Below, piece after piece: positions 13,902-42,267 of a stretch of 64,000 nucleotides of DNA. The notes below the pieces were generated by a model, which saw only the letters and a list, made by a program, of their open reading frames with translations, had not been told where the DNA came from and did not search any database. Location: assembly GCA_018401015.1 (NCBI GenBank), contig JAGYLP010000002.1, positions 62,001-126,000 on the forward strand. Reading direction: 5' to 3'. Both the position numbers and the translations under genes were made by a program. Origin of the DNA: Bacteroidales bacterium. Lineage in GTDB: Bacteria; Bacteroidota; Bacteroidia; Bacteroidales; M50B96. Position 1 is the stretch's first letter. Every line of letters begins with the position of its first letter.

Positions 13902-14759
13902 TTAATTGAATCCGCCTGATTTGGTAAGGTCGGTTCTGGGGTTGACACACATAACCGAGATTCTAGCATCGTTGAAGATGATTTTTTGTTCTTCAGCTCC
14001 CAGTAAAAAGTCTTGAAGGTTAATCTCTTTGGTTATCATGATTAGAATGAGGTTGGTATTGATTTCTTTGGCAAAGCGGATGGTTTCCTCTGCAAAGTTT
14101 TTCCCTTTTTCGGCATAATGCACTTCGAATTCCACTCCTTTTTCGGTGAGGTATTTTCGGGCAAAGTTTAAGTTTCCGATGGTCCGTTTTTTAAGGAGTT
14201 CGTCGCTATGAGTTGCGGTTAGGATTACTATGCGGGAACCAAAGTTTCTCGACATGTAATTGGCCCAGATTAGTTTTTCCTTGGTTTCCAGTTTGTGGTC
14301 GATTGGGAAAACGATGTCGTTGTCCTTGCGATATTGATACGGACCGGATACCATAATGAAGGGGATTTTAGAACCTGCCATTACTTTGAGGGCTCTTGAT
14401 CCGGTAAAACGTTGAATACCTTTGAATTCATGAATGCCCATGATAACTAATCTGGCGTCGAGTTCGTCGGAAATGGTATTGATGGTTTCGTAAAGATGCC
14501 CAAGGCGAGCAATGAATTTAGGCCGTTCCTGGTATTTTTCAAAAGTTTGATCGCTCAATTCCTGCAAGCGCTCGGTAGCTTTTTCCACTTCCTGGATTTT
14601 GGATGCCTCGGAGGTGAACATGCTTCCTTCGTCCACGATGTGAACTAAGGTGTAATCGGTATTTAGAATACGAGATAATCGAACGGCTAAGTCGATTGCA
14701 TATTGAGATACCTCGGTAAAATCGCAGGGGACTACAATGGTTTTCTTGCTAATGGTCAT
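13902..14759 (-). CDS. Universal stress protein, two tandem UspA domains
   Basis: A 285-residue protein made of two UspA-like halves. The first begins KTIVVPCDFTEVSQYAIDLAVRL and ends with VIMGIHEFKG...GSRALKVM and IPFIMVSG; the second covers residues about 150-275 with ILTATHSDE and LILIMITKE. The classical ATP-binding GxxG(x9)GS/T is only partly kept (GSRALKVMAGSKIPFIMV), so nucleotide binding is uncertain. Tandem Usp proteins are common in Bacteroidota and act in stress survival in the cytoplasm. It is transcribed away from the large cyclase gene; the two share a 208-base intergenic region that shows no full promoter match. Confidence 0.88.
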   Translation of the reverse strand: MTISKKTIVVPCDFTEVSQYAIDLAVRLSRILNTDYTLVHIVDEGSMFTSEASKIQEVEKATERLQELSDQTFEKYQERPKFIARLGHLYETINTISDELDARLVIMGIHEFKGIQRFTGSRALKVMAGSKIPFIMVSGPYQYRKDNDIVFPIDHKLETKEKLIWANYMSRNFGSRIVILTATHSDELLKKRTIGNLNFARKYLTEKGVEFEVHYAEKGKNFAEETIRFAKEINTNLILIMITKEINLQDFLLGAEEQKIIFNDARISVMCVNPRTDLTKSGGFN

Positions 14760-14967: not shown

Positions 14968-17900
14968 ATGGCAAAATTTATTGATTCAAAAAATACAGGC
15001 TTGTTTTGGGTTGGATTTTGGGCAATTATTCTCTTGTCCTTGCCCGTAAACCTGTTTGCCACCAACGTAAAACAAGGTATTCCCTTTATCCGGAATTTCA
15101 GCCCTTTTGAATATGCCAGTGAGAATCAGAATTTTTCGATGCTGCAGGACGATCAGGGTGTGAGCTATTTCGGCAACCAGAATGGTATTCTCATCTACGA
15201 TAAACTGGAGTGGCAGCATTTGAATTTGCCCGGATTTCCGCGTCTCGATCGGACTCCTTCCGGCCGAATCTATGTAGGCGGCTTCAATGAATTTGGATAC
15301 CTCGAAACGGCGAAAGGGAAACCTTATCTCGTCTCCTTAAAAGATAAATACCTCAAAAAGGAAGACTTTGGACTGATTGTGAATGTTGTCTGTTCCGACG
15401 AAAATGTCTTTTTCGAAAGTACCGATAAACTCTTTTTATTTCACCACCAGTACATTCAGCTAATCGATGCAAAGCGATCCGGCATTGTTGTTTTTAAAGC
15501 GAATAACCAAGTCTTCATAAATCATTCGACCAAAGGGCTTTGCTTTTTTAAAGATAATCGGGTGCAGGAAATTCCGGGAGGCAATTTCTTCATGGAAAAA
15601 CAAATTGTCGATGTGTTTTTCTGGAATGGTGGATATTATATCCGAACCGAAGAAGATGAGCACTTCTGGTTCTTCGATGGAGTTGGTTTTAAGCCGATTG
15701 AAAGTAAAGCCGATGGTTTTTTGTCGGATCACGAGTATTCTCATGCCACGGTTTTGTTTAACGGCGATTTGGCTATAGGAACAAAAGGGAATGGTATTCT
15801 TTTGCTGAACAGGAAAGGGGAGATAACCAAACACATCAACAAAATCAATGGACTGGCCGATGAGTTTGTTAACTTTCTCTATGCCGATAAGTACGGAAAC
15901 TTGTGGGCCTGTTTGCGAAATGGAATCAGTCGAATTGAATATCCTTCCCCCTTCAGTTATTTTAATACCAGAAATGGATTCGAGGGCGGAGTGTTCACTT
16001 TTATTCGAAAAAATAATTTTTTGTATGCAGGGACCGATAACGGGGTGTATGCCTGTTGTTTAGAAGATACCACCCGCTTGCCATCCTTAAAGAATCTATC
16101 ATCCAACTTTTCTCTTTTACCCTTCATGGTCGGGATTGCCTATCAATTTGTGGAGTCTGAGGATGAATTGCTCTTGGCTGCTTCCAAAGGCGTGTATCGA
16201 CTAAAAGATCGTAAGCTAGAACTCCTGGCTCCTTACCCGGCTCGGGTGCTCCTTCCTTTAAAACACTTTCCGGATTATTTCCTTCTCGGTAGCGATAATG
16301 GATTGCAGCTGCTTCATCGTCAGGGGGACGAATGGTTTGAAATAGCGGCCGACTTTGGAATCAATGGTACGGTTCAGTTCATCGAAGAAGACGACCTCGG
16401 AAACGTTTTTGTAAGTACCAGTTTTTATGGATTATACCGAATTCAGTTTCATCCTGAACACTTCCCGCAATACAGCCTCACGAATTATAAAGAGCAAGGC
16501 TACCTCGGCAACGAACACGGTCTTACTACCATTCTTAAGTCGGGCAACGAAATCCTGTTTTATACTGAATTAGGGCTATTCCGCTTTGAGCAAAGCCCGG
16601 ATTTTACCGGATTCGTATCGCTTGTTCGCCCCAATTTTCCCGTTAATAACCCCCAAATTCTAAACGTACTGAACGATAATACCGGAGGTGTCTATTTTTT
16701 GCTGAGTTCCGATTTGTTGAAAGAAAATAAGCTGGTGGCTACGCGATTTTTGTCGAATGGGAATTTTGAATCATTCGATTACATCCCCGTAGGAAGAATG
16801 AATAACTCCTCGATCGAAACCATTTACATCGACGATTCGCTACGCTGGATAGGAGGGAGCGAGGGGCTTTTGCGCTTCAATCAGGCGTTTAACCAGGCAC
16901 TTATCGACTCGGGGCCTATGCTTGTTAAAAAACTTCGTTTGCAAAACGATAGCATTATCGATATCCCCGTTGGCTATCGTTTTTCTGGCGAAAGAAAAGA
17001 TTTTTTCGACCTTAACCATACTCAAAATAGTTTCAGAATTCAATTTGTTTCCCCTCCTAGCATTGCCGGCCAATCGCATCAGTATCGGTACTGGATGGAA
17101 AATTACGAAGTTGATTGGTCGCCCTGGTCGTCGCTGCACGAAAAGGATTACATTAAACTGAACCCCGGAAAGTATATTTTTCATGTCCAGGGGCGTGACT
17201 TGTTTGGTCGGGAAACGGAGGTTTTTTCCTTGGGAATCATGGTTAAACCTCCCTTCTACTTCACCACTTTTGCTTTAGCGGTTTACGTTATCCTGTTAGT
17301 TAGTTTCCTCTATACCATCATTACCGTTCGATCGTACTTTGTCGCGAAGGAAAGGATTGAACTGGAACGGGAAATTAAAGAACGAACCGATAAATATGTG
17401 AAGGAGAACGAGCGGTCGGAAGATTTGCTGTTGAATATGTTGCCGTCGGAAATCTCCAAAGAGCTTCGGCTTAAGGGGAAAATTTCTACCAGTAAATACC
17501 GAATGGTTACGGTAATGTTTATGGATATTCAAGGTTTTACGAGAATTTCTGAAGTGCTTGAACCGGATTTGCTTGTGGCTAAGTTGGATGAGTTTTTCCA
17601 TGCAGTTGACGGAATCATCGAAAAATATCACCTCGAAAAGATTAAAACGATTGGAGATGGATACATGTGCGCCGGAGGTGTGCCGGTGAAAAATAAAACC
17701 AACCCAATTGAAATGTTACTCGCAGCTCTCGAGGTACGCGAATACATCAAAGGTTTTAAGTTCGATGAGTCGAAAACACCTGCACTCGATTGGGGCTTGC
17801 GTATCGGTGTTAATACCGGCCCGGTTATCGCCGGTTTAATTGGCGATAAACGCCTTTCCTACGATATTTGGGGAATCACCGTGAATAACGCCAGTCGCCT

Positions 17901-18705
17901 AGAATCGAACGGCGTTCCCGGGGAAATCAATATCTCGGAATATACCTACGAGCTTGTGAAAGATTACTTCATTACGCAATCGAATGGAACCTTGTCCATG
18001 AGGTCGGGATCAACTGCGAACATGTACCTGGTTAAAGGCCTGAAACAAGAATACCGTCTCGACGAATCCGGATATGCTATGAATTCGCTGCTTAAATCGG
18101 AACTCACCGAGCTTCGTTATCAGGATCTCTACGAAACCATTATGGAAATGCTCGATAAGGAGCTACCCGAGAAACTCTATTATCACAACAAACAACACAC
18201 AATCGATGTGGTAGAAACGGTTTCCTTCCTTGCGAAAATGGAACAAGTCGATGCCGAATCGGATCTATTACTTCGAACTGCAGCTCTCTTCCACGATATC
18301 GGATACATTGTCGATTTTGAAAACCACGAGCAGCAAGGAGTCAAAATTGCACGCGATATGCTGCCACGTTTCTTCTATACTCCGGCTCAAATCGACCGAA
18401 TAGGGGAACTTATCATGGCTACCAAGTACCCTCCCAGCCCTGAGAATTTATACGAAGCCATCATTTGTGATGCCGACCTCGATTACCTGGGACGAAAAGA
18501 TTTTATCCCTCTCAGTCGAAATTTATTCATGGAGTTTTATGAGCGGAATCTGATTAAATCGGTCGATGAGTGGGTGAAAACTCAAATAAAGTTTATCGAA
18601 CATCACACCTATTTCACCGAAACAGCTATCAAATCGCGCGAGGTGAATAAGAATCAACAGCTTGATAGCTTGCGGAAAATGGACTTTTTGGCCGGCTTCT
18701 TTTAA
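14968..18705 (+). CDS. Receptor-type adenylate cyclase with propeller sensor and C-terminal HD domain
   Basis: A 1245-residue membrane protein. After a signal segment (FWAIILLSLPVNLFA) come about 650 residues of two-component-type beta-propeller repeats, then a Y_Y_Y-like beta domain (about 690-760), one transmembrane helix (about 762-786) and a charged linker. Residues 845-1020 are a class III nucleotide cyclase: metal ligands D853 (FMDIQGF) and D897 (TIGDGYM), adenine-selecting K893 and D966 (YDIWG), and N973/R977 for transition state are all present, so adenylate cyclase is predicted. Residues 1070-1200 are an HD domain with H1073/H1077, H1109-D1110, H1120 and D1168. The sensor is probably periplasmic and the enzymes cytoplasmic. 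No histidine kinase is present although propeller plus Y_Y_Y usually occurs in hybrid kinases. HD substrate unknown. Confidence 0.88.
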   Translation: MAKFIDSKNTGLFWVGFWAIILLSLPVNLFATNVKQGIPFIRNFSPFEYASENQNFSMLQDDQGVSYFGNQNGILIYDKLEWQHLNLPGFPRLDRTPSGRIYVGGFNEFGYLETAKGKPYLVSLKDKYLKKEDFGLIVNVVCSDENVFFESTDKLFLFHHQYIQLIDAKRSGIVVFKANNQVFINHSTKGLCFFKDNRVQEIPGGNFFMEKQIVDVFFWNGGYYIRTEEDEHFWFFDGVGFKPIESKADGFLSDHEYSHATVLFNGDLAIGTKGNGILLLNRKGEITKHINKINGLADEFVNFLYADKYGNLWACLRNGISRIEYPSPFSYFNTRNGFEGGVFTFIRKNNFLYAGTDNGVYACCLEDTTRLPSLKNLSSNFSLLPFMVGIAYQFVESEDELLLAASKGVYRLKDRKLELLAPYPARVLLPLKHFPDYFLLGSDNGLQLLHRQGDEWFEIAADFGINGTVQFIEEDDLGNVFVSTSFYGLYRIQFHPEHFPQYSLTNYKEQGYLGNEHGLTTILKSGNEILFYTELGLFRFEQSPDFTGFVSLVRPNFPVNNPQILNVLNDNTGGVYFLLSSDLLKENKLVATRFLSNGNFESFDYIPVGRMNNSSIETIYIDDSLRWIGGSEGLLRFNQAFNQALIDSGPMLVKKLRLQNDSIIDIPVGYRFSGERKDFFDLNHTQNSFRIQFVSPPSIAGQSHQYRYWMENYEVDWSPWSSLHEKDYIKLNPGKYIFHVQGRDLFGRETEVFSLGIMVKPPFYFTTFALAVYVILLVSFLYTIITVRSYFVAKERIELEREIKERTDKYVKENERSEDLLLNMLPSEISKELRLKGKISTSKYRMVTVMFMDIQGFTRISEVLEPDLLVAKLDEFFHAVDGIIEKYHLEKIKTIGDGYMCAGGVPVKNKTNPIEMLLAALEVREYIKGFKFDESKTPALDWGLRIGVNTGPVIAGLIGDKRLSYDIWGITVNNASRLESNGVPGEINISEYTYELVKDYFITQSNGTLSMRSGSTANMYLVKGLKQEYRLDESGYAMNSLLKSELTELRYQDLYETIMEMLDKELPEKLYYHNKQHTIDVVETVSFLAKMEQVDAESDLLLRTAALFHDIGYIVDFENHEQQGVKIARDMLPRFFYTPAQIDRIGELIMATKYPPSPENLYEAIICDADLDYLGRKDFIPLSRNLFMEFYERNLIKSVDEWVKTQIKFIEHHTYFTETAIKSREVNKNQQLDSLRKMDFLAGFF

Positions 18706-40875: not shown

Positions 40876-42267
40876 ATGACTCATTTTCAATACACCCTGA
40901 AGTCGGCTATTACATTCACCGGTCAAGGTTTACACACCGGTGTAAATACTACCATGACCATTCATCCGGCTCCGGTTAATCACGGTTACAAATTCAAACG
41001 AATCGATCTCGAAGGAGAACCTGAAATACCTGCACTGGCCGATTTTGTAACCAGTACCCAACTTGGAACCATCCTCGAAGACAAAGGCGTGAAAATACAT
41101 ACAGTCGAACACGTCTTAGCTGCTTTGTACGGTATGGAAATCGATAATGCACTCATCGAACTGAATAATTCCGAAATACCCATCATGGACGGTTCCGCGC
41201 GCATGTTTGTCGAAGAAATTGAAAAAACCGGCCTCGTTCAGCAAAATGAACCTCGCGATTACTTTGTTGTAAAAGAGACTATTAGCGTTCATGAAGAGGT
41301 TGAAGGGAAAGAAATCTTGTTAGTTCCCGACGATGAATACCGAATCGTGGTGAATGTTTCCTACGATTCAAAAACCGTTAGTAATCAGTTTGCCAGTCTG
41401 AATCACATTAGCCAGTTTCCATCCGAAATTGCCTTTTGTCGAACCTTCACCTTCATCTCGGAGCTGGAGCCACTCTTGAAAAATAATTTGATTAAAGGCG
41501 GCGATCTCGATAATGCTATCGTTATTATCGATAAACCGATTTCGCAGGAAGAAATCGATCGCCTGGCCAAACTATTCAATCGTAGCTCTGTAGAAGTAAA
41601 ACCCGAAGGAATCCTCAATAATCTGGACCTGTATTTTCCCAACGAACCAGCACGCCATAAACTGCTCGACGTAATCGGCGATTTGGCCTTGGTTGGAAAG
41701 CGAATTAAGGGTAGGGTTATAGCCACCAAACCCGGCCATTTTCTGAATACTGAAATGGCTAAAAAAATTCGTCAGCAGATTAAACAGGAAAAAATGAAAG
41801 GAGAAATTCCGGCCTATAATCCATCCGAAGTGCCGCTAATGGATGTGAATCGAATCATGGAATTACTCCCGCATCGACCACCCTTTTTATTGGTCGATAA
41901 AATCATCTACATGGAAGAAAATACCATCGTAGGGGTGAAAGGGGTAACCATGAATGAACCTTTCTTTGTTGGCCACTTCCCCGGTCAGCCGGTTATGCCC
42001 GGAGTACTCATCGTCGAAGCAATGGCTCAAACAGGTGGCATTCTCGTGCTCAGCTCGGTCGATAACCCCGAAGATTACCTTACTTTCTTTATGAAAATCG
42101 ATAACGTGAAATTCCGGAAAAGCGTGGTTCCGGGCGATACCCTCATCTTTAAATTGATTTACACCACTCCATTCAAAAGGGGAGTTGCGAATATGCTTGG
42201 ACAGGCCTACGTTGGCGAAAACCTGGTTGCCGAAGGCGAATTCATGGCTAAAATTTTTAAAAAATAA
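40876..42267 (+). CDS. lpxC-fabZ: Bifunctional LpxC deacetylase / FabZ dehydratase
   Basis: A 463-residue fusion typical of Bacteroidota. Residues 1-305 are LpxC, the zinc deacetylase that commits to lipid A synthesis: HTVEHVLAALYGMEIDNA contains the first zinc His, and ARHKLLDVIGDLALVGKRI has the other zinc His and Asp. Residues 318-463 are FabZ, the 3-hydroxyacyl-ACP dehydratase: LPHRPPFLLVDKI with the catalytic His, and GHFPGQPVMPGVLIVEAMAQTGG with the catalytic Glu. The fusion couples lipid A and fatty acid synthesis at the hydroxyacyl-ACP branch. lpxA follows 7 bases downstream. Confidence 0.97.
   Translation: MTHFQYTLKSAITFTGQGLHTGVNTTMTIHPAPVNHGYKFKRIDLEGEPEIPALADFVTSTQLGTILEDKGVKIHTVEHVLAALYGMEIDNALIELNNSEIPIMDGSARMFVEEIEKTGLVQQNEPRDYFVVKETISVHEEVEGKEILLVPDDEYRIVVNVSYDSKTVSNQFASLNHISQFPSEIAFCRTFTFISELEPLLKNNLIKGGDLDNAIVIIDKPISQEEIDRLAKLFNRSSVEVKPEGILNNLDLYFPNEPARHKLLDVIGDLALVGKRIKGRVIATKPGHFLNTEMAKKIRQQIKQEKMKGEIPAYNPSEVPLMDVNRIMELLPHRPPFLLVDKIIYMEENTIVGVKGVTMNEPFFVGHFPGQPVMPGVLIVEAMAQTGGILVLSSVDNPEDYLTFFMKIDNVKFRKSVVPGDTLIFKLIYTTPFKRGVANMLGQAYVGENLVAEGEFMAKIFKK

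Follow-up and report, generated by a model that had tools for sequence, protein, structure and literature searches.

CAPE (COMBINED AC with PDE), found in liverworts and other streptophytes, has a class III adenylyl cyclase (AC) and a class-I-type phosphodiesterase (PDE) on one chain (PMC5159850, PMC8115329), and both activities were measured for MpCAPE (PMC5159850). In the Bacteroidota, the HTCS receptors of Bacteroides (PDB 4a2l/4a2m, 3v9f, 3ott) have a periplasmic propeller/Y_Y_Y sensor, and their output is a histidine kinase, a receiver, and an AraC-type regulator. Class III receptor-type cyclases (mycobacterial membrane cyclases, 7TMR-DISM cyclases, and guanylyl cyclase receptors) have a homodimeric core behind a membrane sensor. 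cAMP has hardly been considered in Bacteroidales because sequelogs of cya and crp are missing from B. thetaiotaomicron and no cAMP is detectable in B. fragilis (PMC6989115).

We analyzed a stretch of 64,000 nucleotides from a Bacteroidales genome (the window; contig JAGYLP010000002.1). It encodes a protein (the receptor) that has, in order, a signal anchor, an HTCS-type propeller/Y_Y_Y sensor, one transmembrane (TM) helix, a class III cyclase, and an HD domain. As judged from its sequence and its relatives, this is a real and recurrent receptor cyclase, probably with a built-in cyclic-nucleotide phosphodiesterase. The features of the locus are:

13902..14759, - strand: divergent tandem universal stress protein (Usp) gene, 285 aa (Pfam Usp, 4e-22; conserved adjacency)
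14968..18705, + strand: whole receptor gene (ATG start, single open frame, 1245 aa)
15001..15057, + strand: hydrophobic core of the signal anchor or signal peptide, residues 12-30 (hydropathy)
15064..17262, + strand: periplasmic sensor, HTCS-type beta-propellers and then Y_Y_Y, residues about 33-765 (sensor profile versus PDB HTCS sensors; Pfam)
17080-17244, + strand: Y_Y_Y, residues 705-759 (Pfam)
17272..17328, + strand: single TM helix, residues 769-787 (hydropathy)
17335..17481, + strand: linker helix or cyclase transducer-like segment, residues 790-838 (helices that open the AlphaFold2 model ma44d30fbbbc6)
17491..18036, + strand: class III adenylate cyclase catalytic domain, residues 842-1023 (Pfam; alignment to AC8 and AC9; conservation)
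18109..18702, + strand: HD domain with a class-I-PDE-like helical core, residues 1048-1245 (Pfam; AlphaFold2; fold search; hhalign)

Architecture and recurrence of the receptor

The first-pass annotation proposed that one chain joins a propeller sensor, a cyclase, and an HD domain, and this is borne out by the uninterrupted reading frame, by Pfam, and by homologs in other genomes that span the full length with no internal stop. A dozen or more other genomes, from many families of the order, encode full-length sensor-AC-HD proteins (~1220-1300 aa), so the fusion recurs and the receptor is a genuine single gene. The single open frame and these contiguous homologs rule out a frameshift or gene-joining artefact. 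(The nearest named relative is the Bacteroidales MAG L004, which is apparently the same contig as that of the genus-mate G001.) A literature search on propeller-cyclase or Reg_prop/Guanylate_cyc fusions found no description of the sensor-cyclase-HD combination.

The hydropathy of the receptor shows exactly two TM-like stretches (residues 12-30 and 769-787), which suggests that residues about 33-765 lie outside and that the cyclase and the HD domain lie inside. The AlphaFold2 model of the AC-HD part has a pLDDT of 87.5. When we checked the domains against Pfam, Guanylate_cyc and HD exceeded their curated cut-offs, but Y_Y_Y (residues 705-759, E = 1.7e-5) and Reg_prop (E = 0.004) fell slightly under theirs in the window copy; two homologs (L011 and L013) pass for both. 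Furthermore, a profile of 14 homologous sensors matched the solved HTCS sensors 4a2l, 3v9f, and 3ott (E = 5e-47 to 1.6e-33), so the sensor is homologous to known propeller/Y_Y_Y sensors. Pfam finds no histidine kinase output in the receptor chain, which has the cyclase and the HD domain instead.

Some match is present in 78 of the 99 genomes of relatives. Sensor-less AC-HD proteins, mostly of about 450-530 aa, are widespread, and we collected 53 fused AC-HD proteins in all. When 395 genomes were sampled across the phylum, G139 was the only other one listed with an AC-HD fusion, and G115 had an adjacent pair; an HD-profile search and neighborhood scan added G248, with a Pkinase-AAA-GAF-AC-HD protein of 1866 aa. 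The sensor-fused proteins cluster on the tree, yet their distribution requires 5 changes, which means either repeated gain or loss of the sensor or an imprecise tree.

The cyclase domain

Guanylate_cyc matches residues 842-1023 with E = 3.9e-46 (157.4 bits versus a cut-off of 21.9). The metal, adenine-selecting, and catalytic residues that are expected of a class III adenylate cyclase are all present: D853 and D897 for metal binding, K893 and D966 for adenine selection, and N973 and R977 for catalysis. These are the six residues that the first-pass annotation named, and they align with functional positions of mammalian AC8, where the metal Asp pair matches C1 and the Lys, Asp, Asn, and Arg match C2. 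Because the C1-type and C2-type residues are on one chain, a homodimer can be complete. All six are kept in 16/16 of the sensor-fused homologs within the set of 53 AC-HD proteins; homologs without catalytic residues do exist, but these are short, sensor-less paralogs, many of which have lost them. The receptor contains the only Guanylate_cyc domain in its 99%-complete genome. The proposal that an extracellular signal is read directly into cAMP is thus well supported by the architecture and by the cyclase residues, with cAMP as the predicted product.

Linkage of the HD domain to cyclases

The Pfam HD model matches residues 1076-1170 (E = 2.3e-8, 34.8 bits versus a cut-off of 22), and together with the H...HD...D metal motif (H1077, H1109-D1110, D1170) this places the domain in the HD superfamily of phosphohydrolases. 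The first-pass annotation described a set of intact metal ligands, and H1073, H1077, H1109, and D1110 are indeed present. It gave D1168 as the last ligand, but D1170 (in 'DADL') is probably the likelier one because the Pfam match stops at residue 1170, because hhalign pairs 'DAD-L' with 'CAD-L' of PDE4D and so puts D1170 on the metal Asp of PDE4D, and because six of six paralogs with a broken HD and an intact cyclase have lost D1170 while keeping D1168. H1073 would occupy the general-acid position, and H1077, H1109, D1110, and D1170 would be the metal ligands.

A phylum-wide search with the HD profile yielded a first group at about 176 bits and above, which includes the receptor's HD, and a second group under 170 bits (the groups were split by score, not by tree). 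At 14 of 24 first-group loci from other orders, a class III cyclase lies within 5 kb (two are fused), versus none of the 16 loci of the second group, the sister clade (Fisher P = 1e-4); the other 10 first-group loci have no cyclase within 5 kb. In L018, L023, and L024, the HD is encoded by the ORF that directly follows a propeller-cyclase. The nearby cyclases are of several kinds: REC-AC response regulators behind a histidine kinase and REC protein (L074), REC-AC with REC (L086), and 7TMR-DISM cyclases that adjoin the HD (L072, L075). Other fusion partners of first-group HDs are YitT-DUF2179 membrane proteins and TPR proteins. Because this HD clade is fused to class III cyclases, encoded by the next ORF, or encoded within 5 kb of them, a link between the receptor's HD domain and cyclic nucleotides is very probable.

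The second group includes the HD-PycTM proteins of Bacteroidota (Pfam PF18967, 'Pycsar effector'), which score about 105-170 bits against the receptor's HD profile. In these proteins, the HD is N-terminal and fused to PycTM, whereas the receptor's HD is C-terminal and fused to a cyclase; the 16 second-group loci sampled have no cyclase within 5 kb.

Similarity to class I phosphodiesterases

Class I PDEs have two motifs of the form H(X)3H(X)25-35D/E (definition from PMC4222275). The receptor has the first such motif, as H1073-x3-H1077-x32-D1110, and lacks the second: in H1109-D-I-G-Y1113, a Tyr replaces the class I His. Its HD also misses the curated cut-off for PDEase_I (PF00233; 13.7 versus 24.8 bits), with a weak match at residues 1072-1113 (E = 0.05), and 18 of 26 members match this model weakly (best E = 8e-4). 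Because of the missed cut-off and the absent second motif, we reject straight membership in PDEase_I.

The AlphaFold2 model of the HD alone has a pLDDT of 93.8, and Foldseek ranks 2pq7 first, then YpgQ, and then PDE4D. (2pq7 is a predicted HD hydrolase whose function is unassigned, and the structure of YpgQ was crystallised with ADP.) Among solved structures, the best match by sequence is also 2pq7, followed, over the YHNxxH...HD part, by a number of HD proteins and class I PDEs (E = 0.003-0.1). With VIA-align, PDE10A and PDE7A align to the model with Z of 17-18 over 187-193 of the 198 HD residues (2.3-2.7 A), and 2pq7 is tied at Z = 17.1, though over 161 residues at 3.2 A. Finally, hhalign of 51 first-group HDs against PDE4D and PDE9A (sequences from PDB; 5wh5_A for PDE4D) gave P = 2.9e-5 with a modest probability of 74% in local mode, which we quote because global mode broke the C-terminal alignment. 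It paired, in order, YHNxxH, HD, AT, the metal Asp, and the C-terminal QxxF helix. Q1206 and Q1231 are conserved, and hhalign puts Q1206 on the QVGF helix of PDE4D, off the purine-binding Gln. Overall, the HD domain appears to resemble class I cAMP/cGMP phosphodiesterases in its core and its modeled fold, short of what would make it a class I member.

What the HD domain might do

We lean toward the view that the HD domain hydrolyzes the product of the neighboring cyclase. The idea that one chain makes and breaks a nucleotide signal draws support from the HD-cyclase linkage, from the class-I-PDE-like fold, and from the mostly one-sided losses described below, and the two class I features that the domain lacks count against it.

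A second possibility, which we consider unlikely, is that the HD domain is an active phosphohydrolase for another molecule (a non-cyclic nucleotide, for instance a dNTP, or a product related to the cyclase reaction), so that it would link the cyclase to nucleotide metabolism. The nearest matches by sequence and by fold do include 2pq7 and YpgQ, which was solved with ADP, and the generic HD and HDIG models outscore PDEase_I on the receptor's HD. However, such a role would leave the specific clustering of this HD with class III cyclases, by fusion and by adjacency, to be accounted for, and the modeled similarity to class I PDEs extends across the whole domain.

Active-site losses among the 53 AC-HD proteins bear on a third possibility, in which the HD domain does little catalysis and instead is a module that regulates by binding a ligand (cAMP or AMP, for example, with feedback on the cyclase). 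Both sites are intact in 25 of the proteins; in 21, all of them short, the cyclase is broken and the HD is intact; in 6, the reverse is true; and in 1, both are broken. The six with a broken HD and an intact cyclase (L019, L026, L030, L161, L176, L179) form one clade (100/94), and their retention of a domain without its metal ligands beside an intact cyclase is what a regulatory module would look like. On the other hand, the metal and general-acid residues are intact in 46/53 proteins, and regulation of the cyclase cannot explain why they are kept in 21 proteins whose cyclase residues are broken. We therefore view a purely regulatory HD as quite improbable. Complementary one-sided losses would fit a pathway that uses both activities. 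Of the six genomes with an HD-broken protein, five (G010, G039, G040, G045, G066) also have, in the sampled set, a paralog with a broken cyclase and an intact HD, but this co-occurrence alone is not significant because cyclase-broken paralogs are also common beside an intact fused protein (G007, G055, G065, G067, G092).

Lastly, it is very improbable that the receptor is a plain cyclase carrying an inherited HD that no longer has a role in this species: a sensor-cyclase output is complete by itself and the HD has decayed in one clade, but every HD residue is intact in the window copy and in 12 other sensor-fused homologs (31-51% identical over the full length in those that aligned end to end), and the genome has no other HD of this type.

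Neighboring genes

If the receptor makes cAMP, which protein reads it? The best candidate is the tandem Usp of the divergent gene, a neighbor that the first-pass annotation did not mention; it may sense or buffer the cyclase product. A Usp lies beside the receptor in 7 of the 9 relatives that we viewed in wider context, and the other window neighbors do not recur in these nine, except for one Ham1 match and one partial match. Across the order, a Usp ORF adjoins the AC-HD or sensor-AC gene at 19/29 loci with short flanks, versus 0/40 control HD loci with 6-kb flanks (Fisher P = 4e-10); the contrast may partly reflect lineage because the control loci are from other orders. The 19 include short AC-HD genes with a Usp on each side (L022, L025, L027), and the receptor's own genome has only three Usp-bearing ORFs. 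The mycobacterial Usp Rv1636 binds cAMP and requires Gly10 to do so (PMC11107214). In the window Usp and most partners, aligned by eye, this Gly is replaced by Pro (VVPCDF), which argues against a cAMP binder of the Rv1636 type.

A CRP reader is so far unsupported: the genome encodes five CRP/FNR-type proteins, and the canonical GE...R[ST]A cAMP cassette is absent from all of them. In ten relatives, the canonical cassette is clear at only 1 of 30 loci. We also rejected an operon with hutU (18786), as the linkage is not conserved in the nine relatives. A scan for sigma-70-type promoters found fewer sites than in shuffled sequences, a result that is uninformative for Bacteroidota.

A proposed cAMP pathway and its relatives

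On balance, we favor a model of a one-component receptor in which an HTCS-type sensor controls a cyclase that makes cAMP, the HD domain most likely hydrolyzes the product made next to it, and the Usp is a candidate partner. The periplasmic propeller/Y_Y_Y region would bind a ligand from the periplasm or from outside the cell; by comparison with HTCS receptors, this may be an oligosaccharide. The dimer would then rearrange by way of its one TM helix per chain and its coiled linker, and this would switch the homodimeric cyclase and its output of cAMP. The C-terminal HD, a putative metal phosphohydrolase, would act on the cyclic nucleotide produced beside it, so that one protein could set cAMP up or down. 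The divergent Usp might then sense or buffer the product. More tentatively, the locus could be a self-contained Bacteroidales cAMP circuit that operates without CRP, with a glycan-type receptor, synthesis and a compact new family of HD phosphodiesterase on one chain, and Usp as the reader; as a whole, this is possible but doubtful.

Cyclase-HD fusions are present in dozens of genomes of the order, with linkage to an HD family and to a Usp. If the model is correct, two neighboring genes would provide a cAMP pathway with a receptor, a synthase, a hydrolase, and a candidate effector, and an HD family of Bacteroidota that has so far been annotated generically would gain a function.

Compared with HTCS receptors, the receptor has a homologous sensor but a different output, the cyclase and HD. 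Like class III receptor-type cyclases, it has a homodimeric type of core behind a membrane sensor; it differs from them in its propeller/Y_Y_Y sensor and its C-terminal HD. By analogy, its nearest functional counterpart is the plant CAPE, which likewise has a class III adenylyl cyclase and an HD-fold phosphodiesterase-type domain on one chain, although the activities of the receptor are predicted from sequence. In CAPE, the PDE is N-terminal, the AC is C-terminal, and the PDE is a full class I enzyme, whereas in the receptor the AC is followed by a compact HD that falls short of PDEase_I. Also, unlike CAPE, the receptor has a periplasmic propeller sensor ahead of its AC-HD part. In this receptor, bacteria may have their own version of the plant AC-PDE fusion, probably with a different family of PDE.

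A conserved Usp neighbor

The receptor gene is divergent from a gene for a tandem universal stress protein (Usp):

Window 13902-14759 (-): tandem Usp

The placement of a Usp gene beside genes that encode a class III cyclase and an HD domain on one chain is a conserved arrangement, and a C-terminal tail resembling NPRxDxRxxGGF is common to many of these partner Usps.

HD domains on other proteins

In loci from other genomes (L-numbers), the receptor-type HD group (about 176 bits and above in our phylum-wide HD-profile search) is fused N-terminally to YitT (5 TM) + DUF2179 membrane proteins, and class III cyclases adjoin these fusion genes:

L072 7647-9146: HD/YitT/DUF2179 fusion
L074 2653-4125: HD/YitT/DUF2179 fusion
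L078 3790-5310: HD/YitT/DUF2179 fusion
L082 2379-3887: HD/YitT/DUF2179 fusion

Receptor-type HD domains are also found at the end of TPR proteins and in a multidomain protein:

L076 3599-6241: TPR-HD protein
L077 1875-4466: TPR-HD protein
L153 5989-11589 (-): Pkinase, AAA, GAF, class III cyclase and HD, 1866 aa

A cyclase gene (356 aa) lies 14 bp from the L076 gene, and the L077 protein contains a weak FlgO-like segment.

The sister HD group (below 170 bits in the same search) is fused in Bacteroidota to PycTM (PF18967, Pfam "Pycsar effector"), with no cyclase near the fusion genes at these loci:

L122 5971-7197: HD-PycTM fusion
L125 5293-6615: HD-PycTM fusion

Elsewhere in the window

Window 40876-42267 (+): LpxC-FabA/Z fusion protein

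This fusion is a known arrangement in Bacteroidota.
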